Positions 29,377 through 37,889 of a stretch of 37,898 nt of DNA are shown piece after piece. Origin of the DNA: Pseudomonadota bacterium (GTDB lineage: Bacteria > Pseudomonadota > Gammaproteobacteria > Xanthomonadales > Xanthomonadaceae); assembly GCA_018242465.1 (NCBI GenBank), contig JAFEBY010000022.1:1-37898 (forward strand), in the 5' to 3' direction. The translations under genes were made by a program, and so were the position numbers. The notes beneath the pieces were generated by a model. That model was not told the DNA's origin and did not search any database. It saw only the letters and a list, made by a program, of their open reading frames with translations. Within the stretch, counting starts at the first letter, position 1; every line of letters starts with the position of its first letter.

Positions 29377-30688
29377 GGGAAGCGGCCGTGGGGGCGGGGG
29401 ACGATTGTTGCAGCAATCGCAGCGCCAGCGCCTTGTAGACCGGCATCTTGCACACCAGCATCGATGTCGTGCGCGCAAAGAGCGCCACCGCGAGAATCGG
29501 CAGCAACATGTCGCTGCTGTCGGTCATCTCCATGGTGATGATGGCCGAGGTAAGTGGCGCCTGGGTCACGCCGGATAGATAGCCGCACATGCCCAGCAGC
29601 ACGACGGCCGATGCGGGGGCTGCCGGGAACAATGGCGCCAGGTTCTGGCCGAGGCCCGCGCCAGCAGACAGTGCCGGGGAGAACAGGCCGCCGGGAATGC
29701 CGGCAAGGTAGGACACGAGATTGGCGAGCAGCTTGGCGATGCCGAAGCCCTGTCCGGGAATGTCCTGTTGCAACAACGCGCCTCGCGCCTGTGCGTAGCC
29801 GGTGCCGAAGACGCCATCGCCGAAGGCATATCCCAGCAACGACAATGCAATGCCGCAGGCAATCGCCAGCAGGACCGGGTGGCGCCGGCGCAACGGGCCG
29901 ATCACCGGCATGTCGGGCGCAGTCAACGCAAGCAAGGCACGACTGAAGACACCCCCGGCAAGCCCGCACAGGATTCCGCAAACGGGAACCGCAAGCCAGC
30001 CGCTGCCGAAGGTGATGTGCGTCGAGACGTGGCCGAAGTAGACGTAATCCCCCAGAAGACCCAACGACACCACGCCACCGATGATGACGGCCGTCAGCAA
30101 CGTGCCCGAGAAGCGATGCTCGAAGGCGCCGCCGAGTTCCTCGATGGCGAATACCACGCCCGCCAGTGGCGTGTTGAACGCTGCCGCGATCCCCGCTGCG
30201 CCGCCGGCCAGCAGGAAGCGTGCGCCTTGCTGCGGATCGGCGAATCCGAAACGCCGCCCGATCCAGTGCATCAGGCCGGCACCGATATGGACGGTTGGGC
30301 CTTCGCGGCCGATCGAAGCGCCGCCCAGCAATCCGGCCAGTGTCAGCCCCAATTTGGCGAAGGCGATCTTCGGGGAGAGTTGCGCTTCGCGCCATTCGAC
30401 CGGTTGATCGAGCGCGGCGATGACCTGGGGAATGCCGCTGCCGCGCGTGGCTTGCATGCCGCGAGCGGTGAGCCACGACAGAACACCGAACATCAGGGGC
30501 GGCAACGCCAGCGATGCCAGCGGCCATTGGCGATGCAGCCACATGAAGCCCCGGAAGGCGGCGTCGCTGCCCTTGGCGAACAGGATCGAGGCCAGGGCAA
30601 CCACGACCGCACCGCACCACAGCGCCATTCGCCGACGCCAACTCTCGGATGAAGCGAGCAGGATGGGAGCGTGCGAGTGCGGATCCAT
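29369..30688 (-). CDS. ClC-family chloride/proton antiporter
   Basis: 439 residues with 10 or more membrane segments. Selectivity motifs: GSGIPQ (83-88), GREGP with the gating Glu129, and GGLFSPAL. Glu184 in [11 protein letters not shown] aligns with the internal proton glutamate of exchange-type ClCs, so Cl-/H+ antiport is more likely than a channel. No CBS domains. I chose the ATG at 30688 (MDPHSHAP); an in-frame ATG at 30805 would run through the hutF gene. TGC-GAGAAT lies 8 nt upstream as a possible -10. Confidence 0.9.
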
Positions 30689-30696
30689 GACGCGCC

Positions 30697-30702
30697 ATTC
30701 TC
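30697..30702 (-). promoter_or_regulatory. Possible extended -10 for the ClC-hutI operon
   Basis: GAGAAT preceded by TGC on the minus strand, 8 nt from the ATG. The same 9-mer TGCGAGAAT occurs before the arginine leader (32002-32010). Confidence 0.35.
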
Positions 30703-30724
30703 GCACGCGCGCGCAGGCATCCGG

Positions 30725-30730
30725 CACAAT
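30725..30730 (+). promoter_or_regulatory. Possible -10 for hutF, leaderless
   Basis: CACAAT, 6 nt before the ATG at 30737. Divergent from the ClC candidate within a 48-bp gap. Confidence 0.35.
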
Positions 30731-30736
30731 GACCAG

Positions 30737-31975
30737 ATGGCGCACGCACCCCTCATGCAACGCACCCACGCCGGTTGGCAGACGCCGGGCATCGCCAATC
30801 TCCATTCACACGCCTTCCAGCGCGCGATGGCGGGGTTGAGCGAACGGCAAACCCATCCCGAGGATTCGTTCTGGACTTGGCGTGAAACGATGTATGCGCT
30901 GGCAGCGCGCTTCGATCCGGAGTCGCTGCATGCGGTGGCGTCGCAGTTGTATGCGGAGATGCTGGAAGCCGGCTACACCACCGTCTGCGAATTCCACTAT
31001 CTGCATCATCAGCCCGATGGTCGTCCCTACGATGACGCTGCGGCGATGTCGCGGGCGTTGATCGAAGCGGCGCGTGAAACGGGGATCCGCCTGACCTTGT
31101 TGCCGGTGCTCTACATGACCGGCGGGTTCGATGGCCGACCGTTGTCGGAACGCCAGCGCCGTTTCGGCCATGAGGTTGATGCATATCTGCGCTTGATCGA
31201 AGTCCTGCGCAAGGAAGTGAACGAATCGCTGCGCGTCGGTTGCGCGCTGCACAGTCTTCGCGCAGTGCCGGAAGCAGCGATGCAGGAAGTGATTGCCGGA
31301 TTGCCGCACGGTGCCCGCATCCATGTCCATATCGCCGAGCAGATCCCGGAAGTGGAGGAGTGCATGGCGTTGCGTGGAGCGCGCCCGGTACGCTGGTTGC
31401 TGGATCACGCCGATGTCGATGCACGCTGGACGCTGGTGCATGCAACCCATCTCGACGCCGGCGAAGTGCGCGATCTCGCCGCCTCCGGCGCGACCGCGGC
31501 GATCTGCACCACGACCGAGGGCAATCTCGGTGATGGGTTCTTCCCGTTTCGCGACTATCTCGACCACGGCGGTTGCTGGGGCATCGGTTCCGACTCGCAC
31601 ATCTCGGTGTCGCCGATCGAGGAGCTGCGCTGGCTGGAGTACGGCCAGCGCCTGCAGCGCCAGCGCCGCAACATCGCCACCACGCCGGAATCGCCCAGCG
31701 TTGGCGAGACCCTGCTGGCCGGCGTCGCTGCCAGCGCCGCGCAATCGACCGGCTTCGCGCAACAGGACAGGATGGTGCTGGATGCCGACGCGCCGATCCT
31801 GGCCGCTGCCACCGACGTTGACGTCGCCGATCGCTGGATCTTTTCGGGCAACCGGCCGGTGGTGAGAGGCGTCGAGGTGGCAGGTCGGGAGGTGGTTGCC
31901 GAAGGGCGGCACCTTGCCCACGAGGCCATCGAAGCACGCTACCGGCGGGCGCTGCCCCGGCTGTTGCAGTCGTAA
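30737..31975 (+). CDS. hutF: Formimidoylglutamate deiminase, short N-terminus
   Basis: 412 residues from the ATG at 30737. Amidohydrolase motifs: HSH (23-25) in GIANLHSHAFQRAMAGLSER, HVHIAEQ, VHATHL and SDSHISVSP. HutF turns formiminoglutamate into formylglutamate and ammonia. Usual HutF proteins have roughly 45-50 residues of beta-sandwich before the HSH motif; here only about 20 precede it, while the C-terminal half of that sandwich is present. In-frame ATGs at 30671 (longer, overlaps ClC) and 30752 are alternatives, but none restores the missing part. Confidence 0.9.
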   Translation: MAHAPLMQRTHAGWQTPGIANLHSHAFQRAMAGLSERQTHPEDSFWTWRETMYALAARFDPESLHAVASQLYAEMLEAGYTTVCEFHYLHHQPDGRPYDDAAAMSRALIEAARETGIRLTLLPVLYMTGGFDGRPLSERQRRFGHEVDAYLRLIEVLRKEVNESLRVGCALHSLRAVPEAAMQEVIAGLPHGARIHVHIAEQIPEVEECMALRGARPVRWLLDHADVDARWTLVHATHLDAGEVRDLAASGATAAICTTTEGNLGDGFFPFRDYLDHGGCWGIGSDSHISVSPIEELRWLEYGQRLQRQRRNIATTPESPSVGETLLAGVAASAAQSTGFAQQDRMVLDADAPILAAATDVDVADRWIFSGNRPVVRGVEVAGREVVAEGRHLAHEAIEARYRRALPRLLQS

Positions 31976-31981
31976 CCATGG

Positions 31982-32010
31982 TTGCAGTGCACAACGGAGG
32001 GTGCGAGAAT
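31982..32010 (+). promoter_or_regulatory. Candidate promoter of the arginine operon
   Basis: TTGCAG (31982-31987), 17-bp spacer, GAGAAT (32005-32010) preceded by TGC. Predicted start falls at or near 32017, the A of the leader ATG. No ArgR-type AT-rich box is seen here. Confidence 0.5.
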
Positions 32011-32016
32011 CGCCGG

Positions 32017-32106
32017 ATGCGCACCTGCACCGACGCCATCTACCTGTCTGCCGCAGCCATGGCCACCGGCATGACGTCGCGCGCGCGCCGACCGTACGAG
32101 CACTGA
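32017..32106 (+). CDS. Arginine-rich leader peptide (putative)
   Basis: 29 codons ending in TGA. Arg codons at positions 2, 22, 24 and 25, giving S-R-A-R-R-P-Y-E-H at the end. The stop is 5 nt before the proposed antiterminator arm and about 40 nt before the terminator hairpin. GGAGGG at 31996-32001 is too far (15 nt) to be a good ribosome site and lies upstream of the predicted transcript start, so translation would be leaderless. As a ribosome-stalling sensor it would report charged tRNA-Arg. Confidence 0.5.
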   Translation: MRTCTDAIYLSAAAMATGMTSRARRPYEH

Positions 32107-32172
32107 CTCCGGCCGGTTCGAATCGCTGCGCGTGTGCAGCCAAGTGAAGCCCGGCCCAGCGCCGGGCTTTTT
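32107..32172 (+). promoter_or_regulatory. Putative arginine attenuator (antiterminator/terminator switch)
   Basis: GGCCGG (32111-32116) can pair with CCGGCC (32151-32156), enclosing a small hairpin GCTGC/GCAGC (32125-32129 with 32136-32140). That pairing uses the 5' arm of the terminator (32147-32155), so the two structures exclude each other. A ribosome stalled at the Arg codons (32080-32091) leaves 32111-32116 free; one that reaches the stop covers it. Confidence 0.5.
32147..32172 (+). terminator. Intrinsic terminator 41 nt before argF'
   Basis: AAGCCCGGC/GCCGGGCTT (32147-32155 with 32161-32169), 5-nt loop CCAGC, then a run of T. It sits between the candidate promoter and argF', and no promoter is visible in 32173-32212, so it must be passed to express the operon. 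Confidence 0.85.
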
Positions 32173-32212
32173 CGTTTTCCTCCCATCCCCTTCTTCCCCA
32201 TTGAATCCACCG

Positions 32213-33217
32213 ATGAAACATTTCCTCAATACCCAGGACTGGACCCGCGCCGAACTCGATGCGGTGCTCGCCGACGCTGCCCGTTACAAGCAGCACAAGT
32301 TCGGCGACGTGTTGAAAGGCCAGGGGGTGGCGCTGGTGTTCTTCAATCCTTCGTTGCGCACCCGCACCAGTTTCGAGCTGGGCACGTTCCAGTTGGGTGG
32401 CCATGCCGTGGTGCTGCAACCGGGCAAGGACGCCTGGCCGATCGAATTCGATCTGGGGACGGTGATGGACGGCGAGGCAGAGGAACACATCGCCGAAGTG
32501 GCGAAGGTGTTGTCGCGCTATGTCGACCTGATTGGCGTGCGTGCCTTCCCCAAGTTCATCGATTGGTCGGTCGATCGCCAGGATCGCGTGTTGAAGGGCT
32601 TCGCAAAGTATTCGACGGTACCGGTGATCAACATGGAAACGATCACCCATCCCTGCCAGGAACTGGCGCATGCGCTGGCGCTGCAGGAACACTTCGGCAC
32701 CACGGATCTGCGTGGCAAGAAGTACGTGCTGACCTGGACCTATCATCCGAAGGCGCTGAACACCGCGGTCGCCAATTCCGCGCTGACCATCGCCACGCGC
32801 ATGGGCATGGACGTGACCCTGCTGTGCCCGACGCCGGAATACGTGCTGGATGAGCGTTACATGGGCTGGGCGGCGCAGAACGTCGCCGAGAGCGGCGGTT
32901 CGCTCGCGATCAGCCACGACATCGACAGCGCCTACCGCGATGCCGACGTGGTCTATGCCAAGAGCTGGGGCGCGCTGCCGTACTTCGGCAACTGGGAGCA
33001 GGAAAAACCCATTCGCGACCAGTTCAAGCACTTCATCGTCGACGAACGCAAGATGGGCCTGACCAACAACGGCGTGTTCTCGCACTGCCTGCCGCTGCGC
33101 CGCAACGTCAAGGCCACCGATGGCGTGATGGATTCGCCCAACTGCATCGCCATCGACGAAGCCGAGAACCGCCTGCATGTGCAGAAGGCGGTGATGGCCG
33201 CGCTGGCCAGGCAATAA
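32213..33217 (+). CDS. argF': N-acetylornithine carbamoyltransferase
   Basis: 334 residues. Carbamoyl-phosphate motif [13 protein letters not shown] and [10 protein letters not shown], plus blocks specific to the acetylornithine enzyme of Xanthomonas: [31 protein letters not shown] and [15 protein letters not shown], where Lys300 matches the carboxylated lysine reported for that enzyme. It makes N-acetylcitrulline, so ordinary ornithine transcarbamylase is not used here. First gene of the operon, 107 nt after the leader peptide stop; no strong ribosome site before the ATG at 32213. Confidence 0.96.
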
Positions 33218-33243: not shown

Positions 33244-34458
33244 ATGACCGCTTCAGAATCGAAAGACATCGTCCTCGCCTTTTCCGGCGGACTCGACACC
33301 AGTTTTTGCGTGCCCTACCTGAAGGAACGCGGCTGGAACGTGCACACCGTCTTTGCCGATACCGGTGGCGTGGATGCGGACGAGCGTGCCTTCATCGAGG
33401 CGCGCGCGGCGGAACTCGGCGTGGCTTCGCACATCACCGTCGATGGCGGTCCGGCGATCTGGGACGGCTTCGTCAAGCCGTTCGTGTGGGCAGGCGAGGG
33501 CTACCAGGGTCAGTATCCGTTGCTGGTGTCTGACCGCTACCTGATCGTTGATGCCGCGCTGGCGCGCGCGCATGCGCTCGGCACGAATGCCATCGCGCAT
33601 GGCTGCACCGGCATGGGCAATGACCAGGTGCGTTTCGACCTGGCGGTCAAGGCCAGCGGTGATTACCGCATCGTCGCGCCGATCCGTGAAATCCAGAAGG
33701 AACACACCCAGACCCGCGCCTATGAGCAGAAATATCTGGAAGAGCGTGGCTTCGGCGTGCGCGCCAAGCAGCAGCAGTACACCATCAACGAGAACCTGCT
33801 GGGCGTGACGCTGTCCGGCGGCGAGATTGATGCCTGGAAGGCGCCTGGCGAAGGCGCGCGTGGCTGGTGCAAGCCGCGTTCGGAATGGCCGGCACAGCCG
33901 CTGCGGGTCACGCTGAAGTTCATCGAAGGTGAAGCCGTCGCAATCGATGGCGAAGCGCTGCATGGCGCGCAATTGCTGGCGAAGCTCAACGCGCTGTTCG
34001 CGCCGTATGGTGTCGGTCGTGGCATGTACACCGGCGACACCACCATCGGGCTGAAGGGTCGCATCGTGTACGAAGCGCCGGGCCTCATCACATTGCTGGC
34101 CGCCCATCGCGCGCTGGAAGAAGCGGTGTTGTCCAAGCAGCAGAATCGTTTCAAGCCCGAGATCGCCCGCAAGTGGGTCGAGCTGGTCTACGAAGGCTTC
34201 TATTCCGATCCGCTCAAGGCCGATCTTGAAGACTTCCTCAAGTCGAGCCAGCGCAAGGTCAATGGTGAAGTGGTGGTGGAAACCTCCGGCGCGCGCGTCG
34301 ATGCGGTGGAAGTGCGTTCGCCGCATATCCTCCACGCCAAGGGCGCGACCTATGCGCAGTCGGCCGACTGGGGCGTGGAAGAAGCGGAAGGCTTCATCAA
34401 GCTGTTCGGCATGAGCAGCACCCTGTGGGCCGAGGTCAACCAAGACGGCAATGACTGA
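33244..34458 (+). CDS. argG: Argininosuccinate synthase
   Basis: 404 residues. ATP loop AFSGGLDTS (12-20), citrulline/aspartate segments [13 protein letters not shown] and ENLLG, and the C-terminal tail VNQDGND. It joins citrulline and aspartate using ATP. Sequence and order fit the Xanthomonas-type enzyme. 26 nt after argF'; the stop overlaps the argE start (ATGACTGA). Confidence 0.97.
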
Positions 34459-35542
34459 CCTGCTCGCCGCCACCCTGAAGCACCTCGCCGCACTGGTGTC
34501 GTTCGACACCCGCAATCCGCCGCGCGCGATCGCCATCGAGGACAGCATCTTCGGCTACCTGCGTGCGCAGTTGCCCGGCTTTGATGTCGAGGTGATCGAC
34601 CACGGTGCCGGCGCAGTGTCGTTCTTCGCGGTGCGCGGCAAGCCGAAGTTCCTGTTCAACGTGCACCTCGACACGGTGCCGGATTCGCCGCACTGGAGCG
34701 CCGATCCCCATGTGTTGCGGGTGACGGAAGATCGTGCGATCGGCCTCGGTGCCTGCGACATCAAGGGCGCGGCTGCCGGTCTGGTTGCCGCCGCGAATGC
34801 GGGCGATGGGGATGCGGCGTTCCTTTTCACCACGGATGAGGAAGCGAACGACGCGCGTTGCATCGCCGCGTTCCTGCAACGCGACCACGGTTTCCGCGAT
34901 GTCGTCGTGGCCGAACCGACCAAGGGCGCGGCCGTGCTGGCGCATCGTGGCATCAGTTCGGTGCGCATGCAGTTCCACGGCACGGCGGGACATGCCTCTG
35001 GCGCGCAGGCGATGCAGGCGAGCGCCTTGCACCAGGCGATTCGCTGGGGATCGCAGGCGCTCGATTTCGTGCAGTCACACGATTCCCAGGAATTCGGCGG
35101 GTTGCACGGGCTGCGCTTCAACATCGGGCGCGTCGAGGGCGGCATCAAGGCCAACGTGATCGCGCCCGAAGCGGAATTGCGTTTCGGCTTTCGCCCGCTG
35201 CCTTCGCAGGACATGGACGCACTGCACGCGCGGTTCCGTGGATTCGCGAATGCCGGCGTCGACTACGAGGAAACCTTCCTCGGTCCGTCGCTGCCGGGTG
35301 GCGCGGCGAATGCGGCGGAAGCACGCCGCCATGCTGCGCAGGCGTTCGCCGAATCGTTGCAATTGCCGATTGGCCCCGCCGTCGATTTCTGGACCGAGGC
35401 CTCGCTGTTCTCGCAGGCCGGCATGAACGCCATCGTCTACGGTCCCGGCGATATCGCCCAGGCGCACAGTGCCGACGAGTGGGTGTCGCTGCAGCAACTG
35501 TCCGATGTCACAACCCGTTACCACCAACTGATGGAGCAATGA
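34451..35542 (+). CDS. argE: N-acetylcitrulline (acetylornithine) deacetylase, M20 family
   Basis: 363 residues. M20 metal site: His72 and Asp74 in NVHLDTVP, the bridging Asp in [12 protein letters not shown] (about 103), the catalytic Glu pair in TTDEEAND (about 130), and a dimerisation domain with [11 protein letters not shown]. In this lineage the substrate is acetylcitrulline because carbamoylation comes first; this is inferred from the argF' type. Start overlaps argG by 8 nt. Confidence 0.94.
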
Positions 35543-35543
35543 A

Positions 35544-35612
35544 ATGAACGCCATCGCCTTGCCTTCGACCGTCCTGCGTGGCGATCGGGGGGCTCTTCCG
35601 GAAGCATCCTGA
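35544..35612 (+). other. 22-codon reading frame between argE and the fused argB
   Basis: Begins 1 nt after the argE stop, with GGAG at 35533-35536, and encodes [20 protein letters not shown] plus two residues. It is not recognised. It contains a run of six G (35587-35592); with one G fewer the frame would continue without a stop into the fused argB. It may be a coupling mini-frame, a gene remnant, or the true 5' end of argB interrupted by an indel or base-calling error. Confidence 0.35.
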
Positions 35613-35628
35613 TCTTGCCCTGCTCACC

Positions 35629-36942
35629 ATGACCGATCTGCGCACCACCATCGTCCGACTGTTGTCCAGCATGGGCAGCACCAAGGAAATCCAGCAGTAC
35701 CTCAAGCGCTTCTCGCAACTCGACGCGGCGCGTTTCGCCGTGGTCAAGGTCGGCGGAGCGGTGTTGCGCGACGACCTCGAGGCACTCACTTCGTCACTGG
35801 CATTCCTGCAGCAGGTCGGCCTGACGCCGATCGTGGTGCACGGCGCCGGTCCGCAGCTTGACGCCGAGATGCAGGCCGCCGGCATCGAGAAGGTCACCAT
35901 CGACGGGCTGCGCCATACTGATGCGCCGGTGCTGGCCGTCGTGCGCAAAGTGATGCGCCAGGAAAACCTCAAGCTGGTCGAGGCGCTGCAGGCCGAGGGC
36001 GTGCGTGCGACGTCGATCCAGTCGGGCATCTTCGAGACGGCATTCCTCGACCAGGCGCGTTACGGGCTGGTCGGCAAGGTCACGCACGTCGATACCGACG
36101 GCATCCTCGCCGCGATCAAGGTCGGTTCGATCCCGGTGATCGCGTCGCTGGGCGAAACCGCCGACGGCCAGATCGTCAATGTCAACGCCGACTGGGCCGC
36201 GAACGAGCTGATCAAGACGCTGCAGCCGTACAAGATCGTGTTCCTGACCGGGACCGGTGGCCTGCTCGACGGCAACGACCGCGTCATCGATTCGATCAAC
36301 CTGTCGACCGAATACGAACACTTGCTGGCGCAGCCGTGGATTCACGGCGGAATGCGGGTGAAGATCGAACAGATCAAGGACTTGCTCGATGCGCTGCCGC
36401 TGTCGTCGTCGGTGTCGATCACGCGGCCGTCCGAACTGGCGAAGGAGTTGTTCACCCACAAGGGTTCGGGCACGCTGGTGCGTCGTGGCGAACGCGTGCT
36501 GCACGCGAATCGCTGGGACGAACTCGACCTGCCGCGCCTGCGCGAGCTGATCGATTCGGCGTTCGGTCGCAAGTTGCTTCCGGATTATTTCGAGCGCACA
36601 AAACTGCTGCGCGCCTATGTCAGCGAGAACTATCGCGCCGCGGTGATCCTCACCGACGATGGTGGCCGCCCCTATCTCGACAAGTTCGCGGTGCTCGATG
36701 ACGCGCAGGGCGAGGGCCTCGGTCGCGCCGTGTGGCAGCAGATGCGCGCGGAAACGCCGGCGCTGTACTGGCGTTCGCGCCGCCACAATCCGATCAATGC
36801 CTTTTATGACTCGGAAGCCGACGGCAGCCTGAAGAACGGTGTGTGGAAGTGCTACTGGTACGGCGTGAACGACTTCACCACCATCCGCGAGTGCGTGGAG
36901 CAGGCGATGGCGCGTCCGGCGACGCTGGAAGAACCGGCATGA
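35629..36942 (+). CDS. argB: Fused N-acetylglutamate kinase/N-acetylglutamate synthase
   Basis: 437 residues. Amino-acid-kinase domain about 1-285: [49 protein letters not shown] domain follows about 290-437: [37 protein letters not shown] (acetyl-CoA loop), [19 protein letters not shown]. One chain makes acetylglutamate and phosphorylates it, as in Xanthomonas NAGS-K and the mitochondrial enzymes. The start at 35629 ([14 protein letters not shown]) is where homology begins; it lacks a ribosome site, and an ATG at 35578 is in frame. The stop overlaps argC as ATGA. Confidence 0.93.
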
Positions 36943-37889
36943 CCAGGATCGGGCTCGTTGGCGCGCGCGGCCATGTCGGCGAGGAGATGATCCGACTGGT
37001 CGCCGCGCATCCGCATTTCGAACTCGGTTTCGTGTCGTCGCGCGAACGCGATGGTCAGCGCGTGGCTGATCACGTTTCCGGATTCGATGGCGATTTGCAT
37101 TATCGCAATCTGTCGCACGAAGCCTTGCCGGGCGAGGACGTCGATGCCTATGTGCTGGCATTGCCCAATGGCAAGGCCGCGCAGTGCGTCGCAGAGATCG
37201 ACACGCGTGGCGACGAGCCGGTGGTCATTGATCTCTCCGCCGACTATCGCTTCGACAATGGCTGGTTTTACGGCCTGCCGGAACTCACCCGTGACAGCTA
37301 TGCGGGGCAGCGTCGCATCAGCAATCCCGGTTGCTATGCCACGGCAATGCAGCTGGCGATCGCGCCATTGCGCGAGCACCTGGTCGGCCCGGTGCAGTGC
37401 TTCGGTGTATCCGGCTATTCCGGCGCCGGCACCACGCCCAGCGACAAGAACGATCCGGCCAAGCTGCATGACAACCTGATGCCGTATGCGCTGGCCGGTC
37501 ATCTGCACGAGCGCGAAGTGACGCGCCACTGCGCGACGGTCGAGTTCATGCCGCACGTGGCACCGCATTTTCGCGGACTGACCATTACCGCCAACCTGCA
37601 TCTGGATCGTGCCTTCGGACGCGACGAGATGCTGGCGCTGTATCGCGATCGTTATGGCCACGAATCGCTGGTCGACGTCTTCGATGACGCGCCATGGGTC
37701 AGCCGCATCGCACACGCGCACGGCGTGCACGTAGGCGGTTTCACGCCTGCTGATGACGGCAAGCGCTGGGTGGTCGTGTCGACGCTCGACAACCTGCTCA
37801 AGGGTGCGGCGACGCAGGCCCTGCAGAATCTCAATCTCGCCTTCGGATTCGATGAGCTCGAGGGCATTCCCCATGAGGCGCGGACATGA
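36939..37889 (+). CDS. argC: N-acetyl-gamma-glutamyl-phosphate reductase
   Basis: 316 residues. NADP-binding start [14 protein letters not shown], catalytic Cys in [12 protein letters not shown] (about 128), [14 protein letters not shown] and the His motif near [13 protein letters not shown]. It reduces acetylglutamyl phosphate to the semialdehyde. Overlaps argB at its start and the next gene at its stop, both as ATGA. Confidence 0.96.

Follow-up and report, generated by a model that had tools for sequence, protein, structure and literature searches.

A probable ribosome-mediated arginine attenuator, with a putatively leaderless mRNA, in front of the argF′ operon of Xanthomonadaceae and their relatives

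The argF′ operon and its leader region

The window analysed here is the whole 37,898-nucleotide stretch of contig JAFEBY010000022.1 (assembly GCA_018242465.1), from a member of the Xanthomonadaceae. Towards its end it carries a run of arginine genes beginning with argF′, preceded by hutF on the same strand. The region between hutF and argF′ contains the elements of a leader, which are collected with the genes in Table 1.

Table 1. Coordinates of the leader elements and genes in the window
Feature	Position	Strand	Basis or remark
hutF, formimidoylglutamate deiminase, directly upstream of the leader	30671-31975	+	profile match
-35 element TTGCAG	31982-31987	+	TTG 16-18 nt from a -10-like box in the window and 80/80 best loci
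extended -10 element TGC-GAGAAT	32002-32010	+	TG before the box in 80/81 loci; box GANNAT in 74/81
leader ORF, 29 codons, probably leaderless	32017-32106	+	start codon coincides with the expected +1
conserved peptide core GMTSRARR, codons 18-25	32068-32091	+	81 loci not chosen by the core
Arg codon 22 (CGC), proposed sensor	32080-32082	+	CGC 48, CGT 33 of 81 loci
Arg codon 24 (CGC), proposed sensor	32086-32088	+	CGC 57, CGT 24 of 81 loci
CGA-CCG (Arg 25-Pro 26), probable main stall site	32089-32094	+	CGA in 78/81 and 113/119 loci
antiterminator 5′ strand GGCCGG	32111-32116	+	reachable by a ribosome at the stop codon
predicted antiterminator hairpin	32111-32156	+	folding, -23.1 kcal/mol, for a ribosome at codon 25 before synthesis of the terminator 3′ arm
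intrinsic terminator	32146-32172	+	arms 32146-32155 and 32161-32170, then a T run
argF′, N-acetylornithine carbamoyltransferase, first structural gene	32213-33217	+	NF003384, 619 bits (cut-off 288)
argG, argininosuccinate synthase	33244-34458	+	NF003385
argE′, acetylornithine deacetylase	34451-35542	+	NF006439
acetylglutamate kinase, long type, 454-aa ORF	35578-36942	+	NF003386; ORF bounds, predicted start
argC, N-acetyl-gamma-glutamyl-phosphate reductase	36939-37889	+	TIGR01850

The peptide encoded by the leader ORF, read directly from the window sequence, is MRTCTDAIYLSAAAMATGMTSRARRPYEH; its C-terminal part includes GMTSRARRP. Arginine is specified by codons 22, 24 and 25 and, near the other end, by codon 2. 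The spacer between TTGCAG and GAGAAT (32005-32010) is 17 nt, the latter box is directly preceded by TGC, and 6 nt separate it from the leader ATG. This promoter is absent from the list produced by our consensus scan, since it falls short of the scan threshold. The same scan places the terminator at 32146-32170, 42 nt before the argF′ ATG. The strings GGCCGG and CCGGCC (32151-32156) are both present, and no Shine-Dalgarno sequence was seen by eye in front of the leader ORF in the window. An earlier sequence-only reading of this DNA had picked out the promoter-like TTGCAG-17-GAGAAT, the 29-codon frame with its three Arg codons, the intrinsic terminator 41 nt before argF′ and the two hexamers able to pair, and each of these elements lies where it had been described. 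There is also an earlier in-frame ATG at 31978, upstream of the promoter (frame 31978-32106), which would serve only transcripts begun further upstream.

The arrangement exceeds chance expectation. Our attenuator search rule, which was drawn up after the leader had been seen, demands an intrinsic terminator, the stop codon of a 15-60-codon ORF some 10-60 nt before it, and at least three Arg in six codons near the end of that ORF. Applied to both strands of the whole window, it returned this leader as the single case; applied to 80 related loci, it returned a case before argF′ in 79 of the 80, and 10 elsewhere in 783 kb.

Distribution of the leader and of ArgR

Two sets of loci were compared. 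The first consists of the window and the best 80 of 433 ArgF′ relatives in the genome collection (L002-L081), which similarity and titles place in the window's family; these 81 loci were selected by ArgF′ and not by the core. Taking as core any in-frame sequence with at most three differences from SGMTSRARR shortly before argF′, we found it in the window and in all 80. The second set, of 119 loci, adds 38 of 40 further loci fetched with a DNA pattern for MTSRARR, all 38 with argF′ adjoining. The other two, L122 (the second G224 match) and L133 (G114), have neither argF′ nor argG nearby and were excluded as chance hits. In the 38 pattern-fetched loci the residues M, T, S, R, A, R and R and the absence of AGA and AGG hold by construction, while the absence of CGG, the third bases of the codons, the Gly and two upstream Ala residues are unforced by the pattern. 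From one further fetched group only L164, L165 and L169 were used.

Run on 250 sampled genomes of the order, the MTSRARR pattern gave 119 matches in 117 genomes, against one match for the reversed pattern used as control; outside the order, 2 of 364 genomes had a match. Coordinates relative to argF′ place the core 95-400 nt before that gene in 115 of the 250 genomes, namely 54/54 in the window's family, 51/51 in family f12, 3/3 in f2 and 7/10 in f3. Of the three f3 genomes outside this count, one (G062) carries the leader upstream of a split argF′, and in the other two (G055 and G076) the contig stops short of the leader position. Apart from the matches in the 115 genomes, there are four other pattern matches; the extra match on contig C59 of G199 does not lie before argF′. 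The attenuator arrangement is strongly conserved: the terminator and the competing pairing described below are kept, and both ends of the peptide are not. Alignment with relatives had been put forward as a check in the sequence-only reading, and the Arg cluster, the stop position and the competing pairing indeed recur in the 119 loci examined.

In families f4-f10, argF′ is present in most sampled genomes and the core is not found before it. We took 20 regions, a non-random sample drawn from the better-scoring listed argF′ matches; one of them, L152, has no upstream sequence, which leaves 19 loci. Using a rule written after the first leaders of this kind had been seen, a different Arg-rich leader followed by a terminator was found in 16 of the 19, with peptides ending, for example, in NPRRRRVSQSTAG, FVRRLRRPGYH and ALRRRRRSSQRRAG. 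The leader peptide differs in f4, f6, f7, f8, f9 and f10, where the Arg cluster alone remains. A competing pairing of 7-9 bp is present in 12 of the 16 leaders; no strong competing pair was found in the other four (L137, L138, L140 and L151). One of these families supplies an independent compensated variant: in L144 (f8), TGCCAGGTT pairs with AACCTGGCA, both the terminator and the antiterminator strand being changed. In the chosen C-terminal portions of these 16 leaders, 75 of 81 Arg codons belong to the set predicted to be read by the ACG tRNA; the corresponding figure for the fetched argF′ segments is 50 of 69 (p 0.002). CGA accounts for 29 of 81 compared to 10 of 69 (p 0.005). The six exceptions to the codon set sit, by eye, near the stop codon and outside the cluster. 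No Arg leader was found before argF′ in the remaining three of the 19 loci, L134 (f5) and L148 and L150 (f9). At these three, argF′ has no visible Arg leader or terminator, and their families gave no ArgR match.

The arginine repressor ArgR is treated as conserved in many gammaproteobacterial groups (PMC5343134); the string 'Xanthomonad' does not occur in the text of that paper. The sequence-only reading had likewise stated that arginine genes of gammaproteobacteria are usually repressed by ArgR, a generalization that fails here, ArgR not having been found in the window's family. A search with the ArgR N-terminal domain (PF01316) detected 9 of the 14 genomes used as controls, including E. coli. 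In the order, 8 of 250 genomes gave a match, and each of these belongs to f11, a family of 9 sampled genomes. No match was obtained in the 118 genomes of the four core families f1, f12, f2 and f3, which include the 54 of the window's family and with them the window's own genome (87% complete). We therefore rejected control of the operon by ArgR. The core pattern is absent from the f11 genomes, and an exchange of ArgR for the leader in f11 is seen only as this absence.

Promoter, start of the leader mRNA and correspondence to Xoo5

A TTG, a spacer of 16-18 nt, a NANNNT box and, 5-10 nt further on, an in-frame start codon are found in this order in the window and in 80/80 of the best loci, compared to 2 of 1620 mononucleotide shuffles. 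The spacer is 17 nt long in 75 of the 81 loci and the start codon lies 6-10 nt past the box throughout. A Shine-Dalgarno-like string occurs in 14 of the 81.

The window carries a match to RF02242 (Xoo5) at 32059-32091; its score, 25.7 bits (E 0.0025-0.0056), falls short of the 50-bit gathering score. A cmscan of 31600-32500 at E up to 1 returned Xoo5 as the sole match and no known riboswitch or T-box; a T-box or other known riboswitch was rejected on this ground. Within the order, RF02242 matches 69 of 250 genomes, 42 of them at or over the cut-off. Under stricter filters no match is listed for G000 or for G054, a genome of the window's genus. Second RF02242 hits in G207 and G136 were discarded, nothing leader-like being seen by eye in the portions inspected. 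The model itself stops short of the terminator and represents the coding region as a hairpin.

sRNA-Xoo5 was described in Xanthomonas oryzae as an RNA of 124 nt, with a 5′ end mapped by 5′ RACE, between PXO_00354 and PXO_00353 (PMC3039613). Table 4 of that paper names PXO_00353 as N-acetylornithine carbamoyltransferase and PXO_00352 as argininosuccinate synthase (PMC3039613), so that Xoo5 and the window leader share an orthologous position before argF′. In the best-scoring match (G243, L169), positions 3 and 57 of the 124-position model fall on the leader AUG and on the ATG of MTSRARR, respectively, so that the model begins 2 nt ahead of the leader AUG. Since the length of the model equals that of Xoo5, model position 1 should correspond to the mapped 5′ end. 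Xoo5 is thus probably the leader RNA of the arginine operon. It was described as a non-coding sRNA, whereas here the same genomic place, with the AUG 2 nt past the 5′ end, holds the leader ORF of that operon; a search of the main text of the paper for words beginning with 'arginine' or 'leader peptide' returned neither (PMC3039613). Two observations speak against a simple picture. By comparison with the best match, the 3′ end cloned for Xoo5 falls some 30 nt short of the terminator's end. The Northern bands of about 130 and 100 nt, the longer of which is lost in later growth (PMC3039613), are smaller than a fully terminated RNA, which would have about 155 nt.

A start codon at the expected +1, together with an Xoo5 5′ end 2 nt before the AUG, points to a leaderless leader. 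In the window's family the leader mRNA is probably leaderless, its start being placed here from the Xanthomonas 5′ RACE. That mapped end precedes the terminator and does not lie downstream of the position equivalent to 32172, the outcome that the sequence-only reading had named as counting against itself. The start codon at the expected +1, the published sRNA counterpart and the lack of an ArgR match in the window's family go beyond what that reading contained. In f12 (L102-L129 without L122) the promoter looks shifted by eye, with TTGC, 17 nt and a CATGAT-like box, and a short 5′ UTR containing GGAA seems to precede the ATG; leaderlessness may therefore be a particular trait of the window's family.

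Competing structures, codon choice and proposed mechanism

A terminator follows the leader in all 119 loci, 22-48 nt past the leader stop codon. The best 10-mer complementary to the first arm of this terminator is centred between -12 and +18 of the stop in 109 of the 119 (31% expected), and 95 of the 119, compared to 8% of shuffles, can form an uninterrupted pairing of 7 bp or more when G-U pairs are counted. The mean duplex energy is -13.8 kcal/mol for native loci, -12.7 when the arms are swapped between loci and -8.7 when the strands are shuffled; the native duplex is stronger than the swapped one in only 83 of 119 loci. Arms with CCCAGC go with GCTGGG-type strands (56:3) and arms with CCCGGC with GCCGG-type strands (43:13; Fisher 4e-16), in a table which leaves out 4 of the 119 loci and in which related sequences inflate the association. 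Covariation corrected for relatedness with a quick tree gave 3 supported independent pairs (median p 0.5), which is not significant. For f12, an antiterminator CGGG/TGTCG was considered and rejected, the computed pairing being that of GCCGGGT at the stop with ACCCGGC.

The ribosome was placed in our folding calculations using known footprint sizes. With a ribosome on codon 25 and the second terminator arm unmade, the antiterminator is predicted in the window and in six other loci; with a ribosome at the stop codon, the first terminator arm pairs only within the terminator. For the full RNA at equilibrium the terminator wins in 7/7 loci, even with a ribosome on codon 25. As the full-length RNA prefers the terminator, the switch must be kinetic, and known attenuators do fold kinetically.

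Sequence comparison also reveals selection on the leader at the level of both peptide and codons. In the 81 loci, the core residues are conserved as G 74, M 80, T 80, S 81, R 81, A 80, R 81 and R 81, with several synonymous codons or third-position changes at most positions. In the 119 loci, Ala at -6 and at -3 from the M is invariant, each being encoded by four different codons, a Pro follows the core in 88%, and the N- and C-terminal parts of the peptide vary. The 243 core Arg codons of the 81 loci selected by ArgF′ include no CGG, AGA or AGG, and CGG is likewise missing from the 357 of the 119 loci. In the argF′ genes of the 119 loci (n=2216 Arg codons), CGG makes up 10%, AGG 2.8% and AGA 0.1%, together 13%, and CGA 1.2%; the third core Arg codon is CGA in nearly all loci (Table 1) and is directly followed by CCG in 102 of 119. 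The same-genus genome G054, estimated to be 100% complete, has 44 tRNA matches, which include one Arg tRNA gene each with anticodons ACG, CCG, CCT and TCT and none with TCG. An ACG tRNA is modified to carry inosine, which reads CGA through an I:A wobble. With a single tRNA-Arg(ACG) and none with TCG, one tRNA should read all three core Arg codons. CGA-CCG, an inhibitory codon pair in yeast (PMC6755093), is probably the main stall site here.

We propose that the region is, very probably, a ribosome-mediated transcription attenuator coupling the argF′ operon to the charging of tRNA-Arg on a leaderless mRNA. From observations at the sequence level, namely the anatomy, the conservation, the competing pairings, the codon choice and the lack of an ArgR match, we infer translation, stalling, an arginine response and a role of the peptide. 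The transcription start would coincide with the leader AUG or narrowly precede it, and ribosomes would load on the leaderless mRNA. With tRNA-Arg(ICG) charged, the ribosome would run through CGC-GCG-CGC-CGA-CCG to the stop codon and cover the antiterminator 5′ strand, so that the terminator would form and the operon would be off; termination would leave a short RNA, which in Xanthomonas would be Xoo5 or its precursor. Under arginine shortage, the ribosome would stall at the Arg codons, CGA before CCG being the likeliest place; the 5′ strand would then pair with the first terminator arm and RNA polymerase would continue into argF′. During the stall A..A.GMTSRARR would lie in the upper exit tunnel, probably strengthening or timing it. 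Weighing against the proposal are the equilibrium preference for the terminator, the non-significant corrected covariation, the 3′ end and band sizes of Xoo5 and, in the other families, the three loci lacking such a leader and the four leaders lacking a strong competing pair.

Attenuators of the trp/his type are found in Proteobacteria, and the sequence-only reading had assigned the leader to this type, an assignment to which the conserved Arg cluster, stop position and competing pairing lend support. Like the trp and his attenuators, the leader combines an ORF containing codons for the end product, a competing antiterminator and an intrinsic terminator before the operon. It differs from them in responding, as proposed, to arginine, in its leaderless start, in its conserved peptide core and in having, in place of a codon run, three mixed Arg codons with the rare one last. 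That A..A.GMTSRARR is kept next to the proposed stall codons, a conservation which the sequence-only reading had missed, suggests selection on the peptide, which codon counting does not need; counting of codons may thus explain the mechanism only in part. A tentative extension, which we consider possible though less likely than not to be correct, is that the leader encodes an arrest peptide gated by tRNA: A..A.GMTSRARR in the nascent chain, together with the slow CGA-CCG pair, would impose a pause, and charging of the single tRNA-Arg(ICG) would gate the escape. If true, the mechanism would unite attenuation by codon counting with an arrest programmed by the peptide, both on a leaderless mRNA, and such a leader would take the place of ArgR in entire families of the order.

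The conserved peptide could also be read as an arrest peptide which senses free arginine (or ornithine) in the tunnel, high arginine being the signal and the terminator being kept on. The fungal arginine attenuator peptide senses free arginine in the ribosome tunnel, and the selection on the core described above, with invariant Ala residues, synonymous third-position changes and variable peptide ends, speaks for such a reading. The conserved peptide before the stall site is seen in the core families and not in the others, where the Arg cluster stays while the peptides differ, a pattern which a ligand-binding peptide would not explain; moreover the codon choice is itself selected (CGA in 113/119, CGG in 0/357), which points to decoding. 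We regard sensing of free arginine as unlikely. Still less probable is that Xoo5-type RNA acts mainly in trans, as an sRNA or a free peptide, its place before argF′ mattering little. Xoo5 was indeed published as an sRNA detected by Northern blot (PMC3039613), and trans roles are known for an attenuator RNA and its peptide, rnTrpL and peTrpL of Sinorhizobium (PMC7298713). Against this, the element lies before argF′ in 115 genomes by coordinates and the competing pairing requires the cis order; in addition, Xoo5 expression is reported to be Hfq-independent, and seven sRNA deletions, that of Xoo5 included, had no obvious phenotype (PMC3039613). The same deletions were stated to leave flanking genes unaffected (PMC3039613), and both outcomes also count against the attenuator reading.

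The least probable reading, to which we give almost no weight, takes the element for the ordinary terminator of hutF with a chance ORF in front of it. The terminator does follow the end of hutF (31975) by about 170 nt on the same strand, and the consensus scan shows no other terminator-like site between 31700 and the leader terminator, from which it follows that hutF transcripts may run into the leader. Yet a promoter with counterparts in the 80 best loci stands between the two, on account of which the reading was rejected, and a chance ORF would not keep the core in every sampled genome of two families (54/54 and 51/51). Read-through RNAs from hutF would not give a leaderless start.

Attenuation of the kind preferred here has partial counterparts. 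For Sinorhizobium meliloti trpL, the mRNA likewise begins with the leader ATG, the terminated RNA is known as an sRNA and the operon is not under transcription repression; it differs in sensing tryptophan, in belonging to an alphaproteobacterium and in its 14-aa peptide (PMC7298713). orf34, before Salmonella speF, has two consecutive Arg codons and a conserved leader peptide, and arginine is sensed through pausing; it precedes an ornithine decarboxylase gene and works through Rho, RNA folding and RNase G rather than an intrinsic terminator of an arginine-making operon (PMC6386406). Pseudomonas aeruginosa carA likewise has a leader peptide and a stem-loop before an arginine-related operon, but there the stem-loop serves pyrimidine control and ArgR represses carA (PMC4997734). 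Among the matches listed from the open-access literature there was no description of an arginine attenuator for a bacterial arginine-making operon. The attenuator would explain how Xanthomonas, Stenotrophomonas, Lysobacter and their relatives could control arginine synthesis without ArgR, and the orphan Rfam sRNA family RF02242 gains a likely function. Leaderless leader peptides, peptide-assisted stalling and the slow codon CGA could all be studied in this natural system.

A further observation in Xanthomonas concerns a different sRNA. When sRNA-Xoo1 was deleted, argininosuccinate synthase reportedly fell 3.25-fold, N-acetylornithine carbamoyltransferase fell 1.7-fold and leucine enzymes were lowered as well (PMC3039613), and it is conceivable that this effect on the arginine enzymes acts indirectly through the attenuator.
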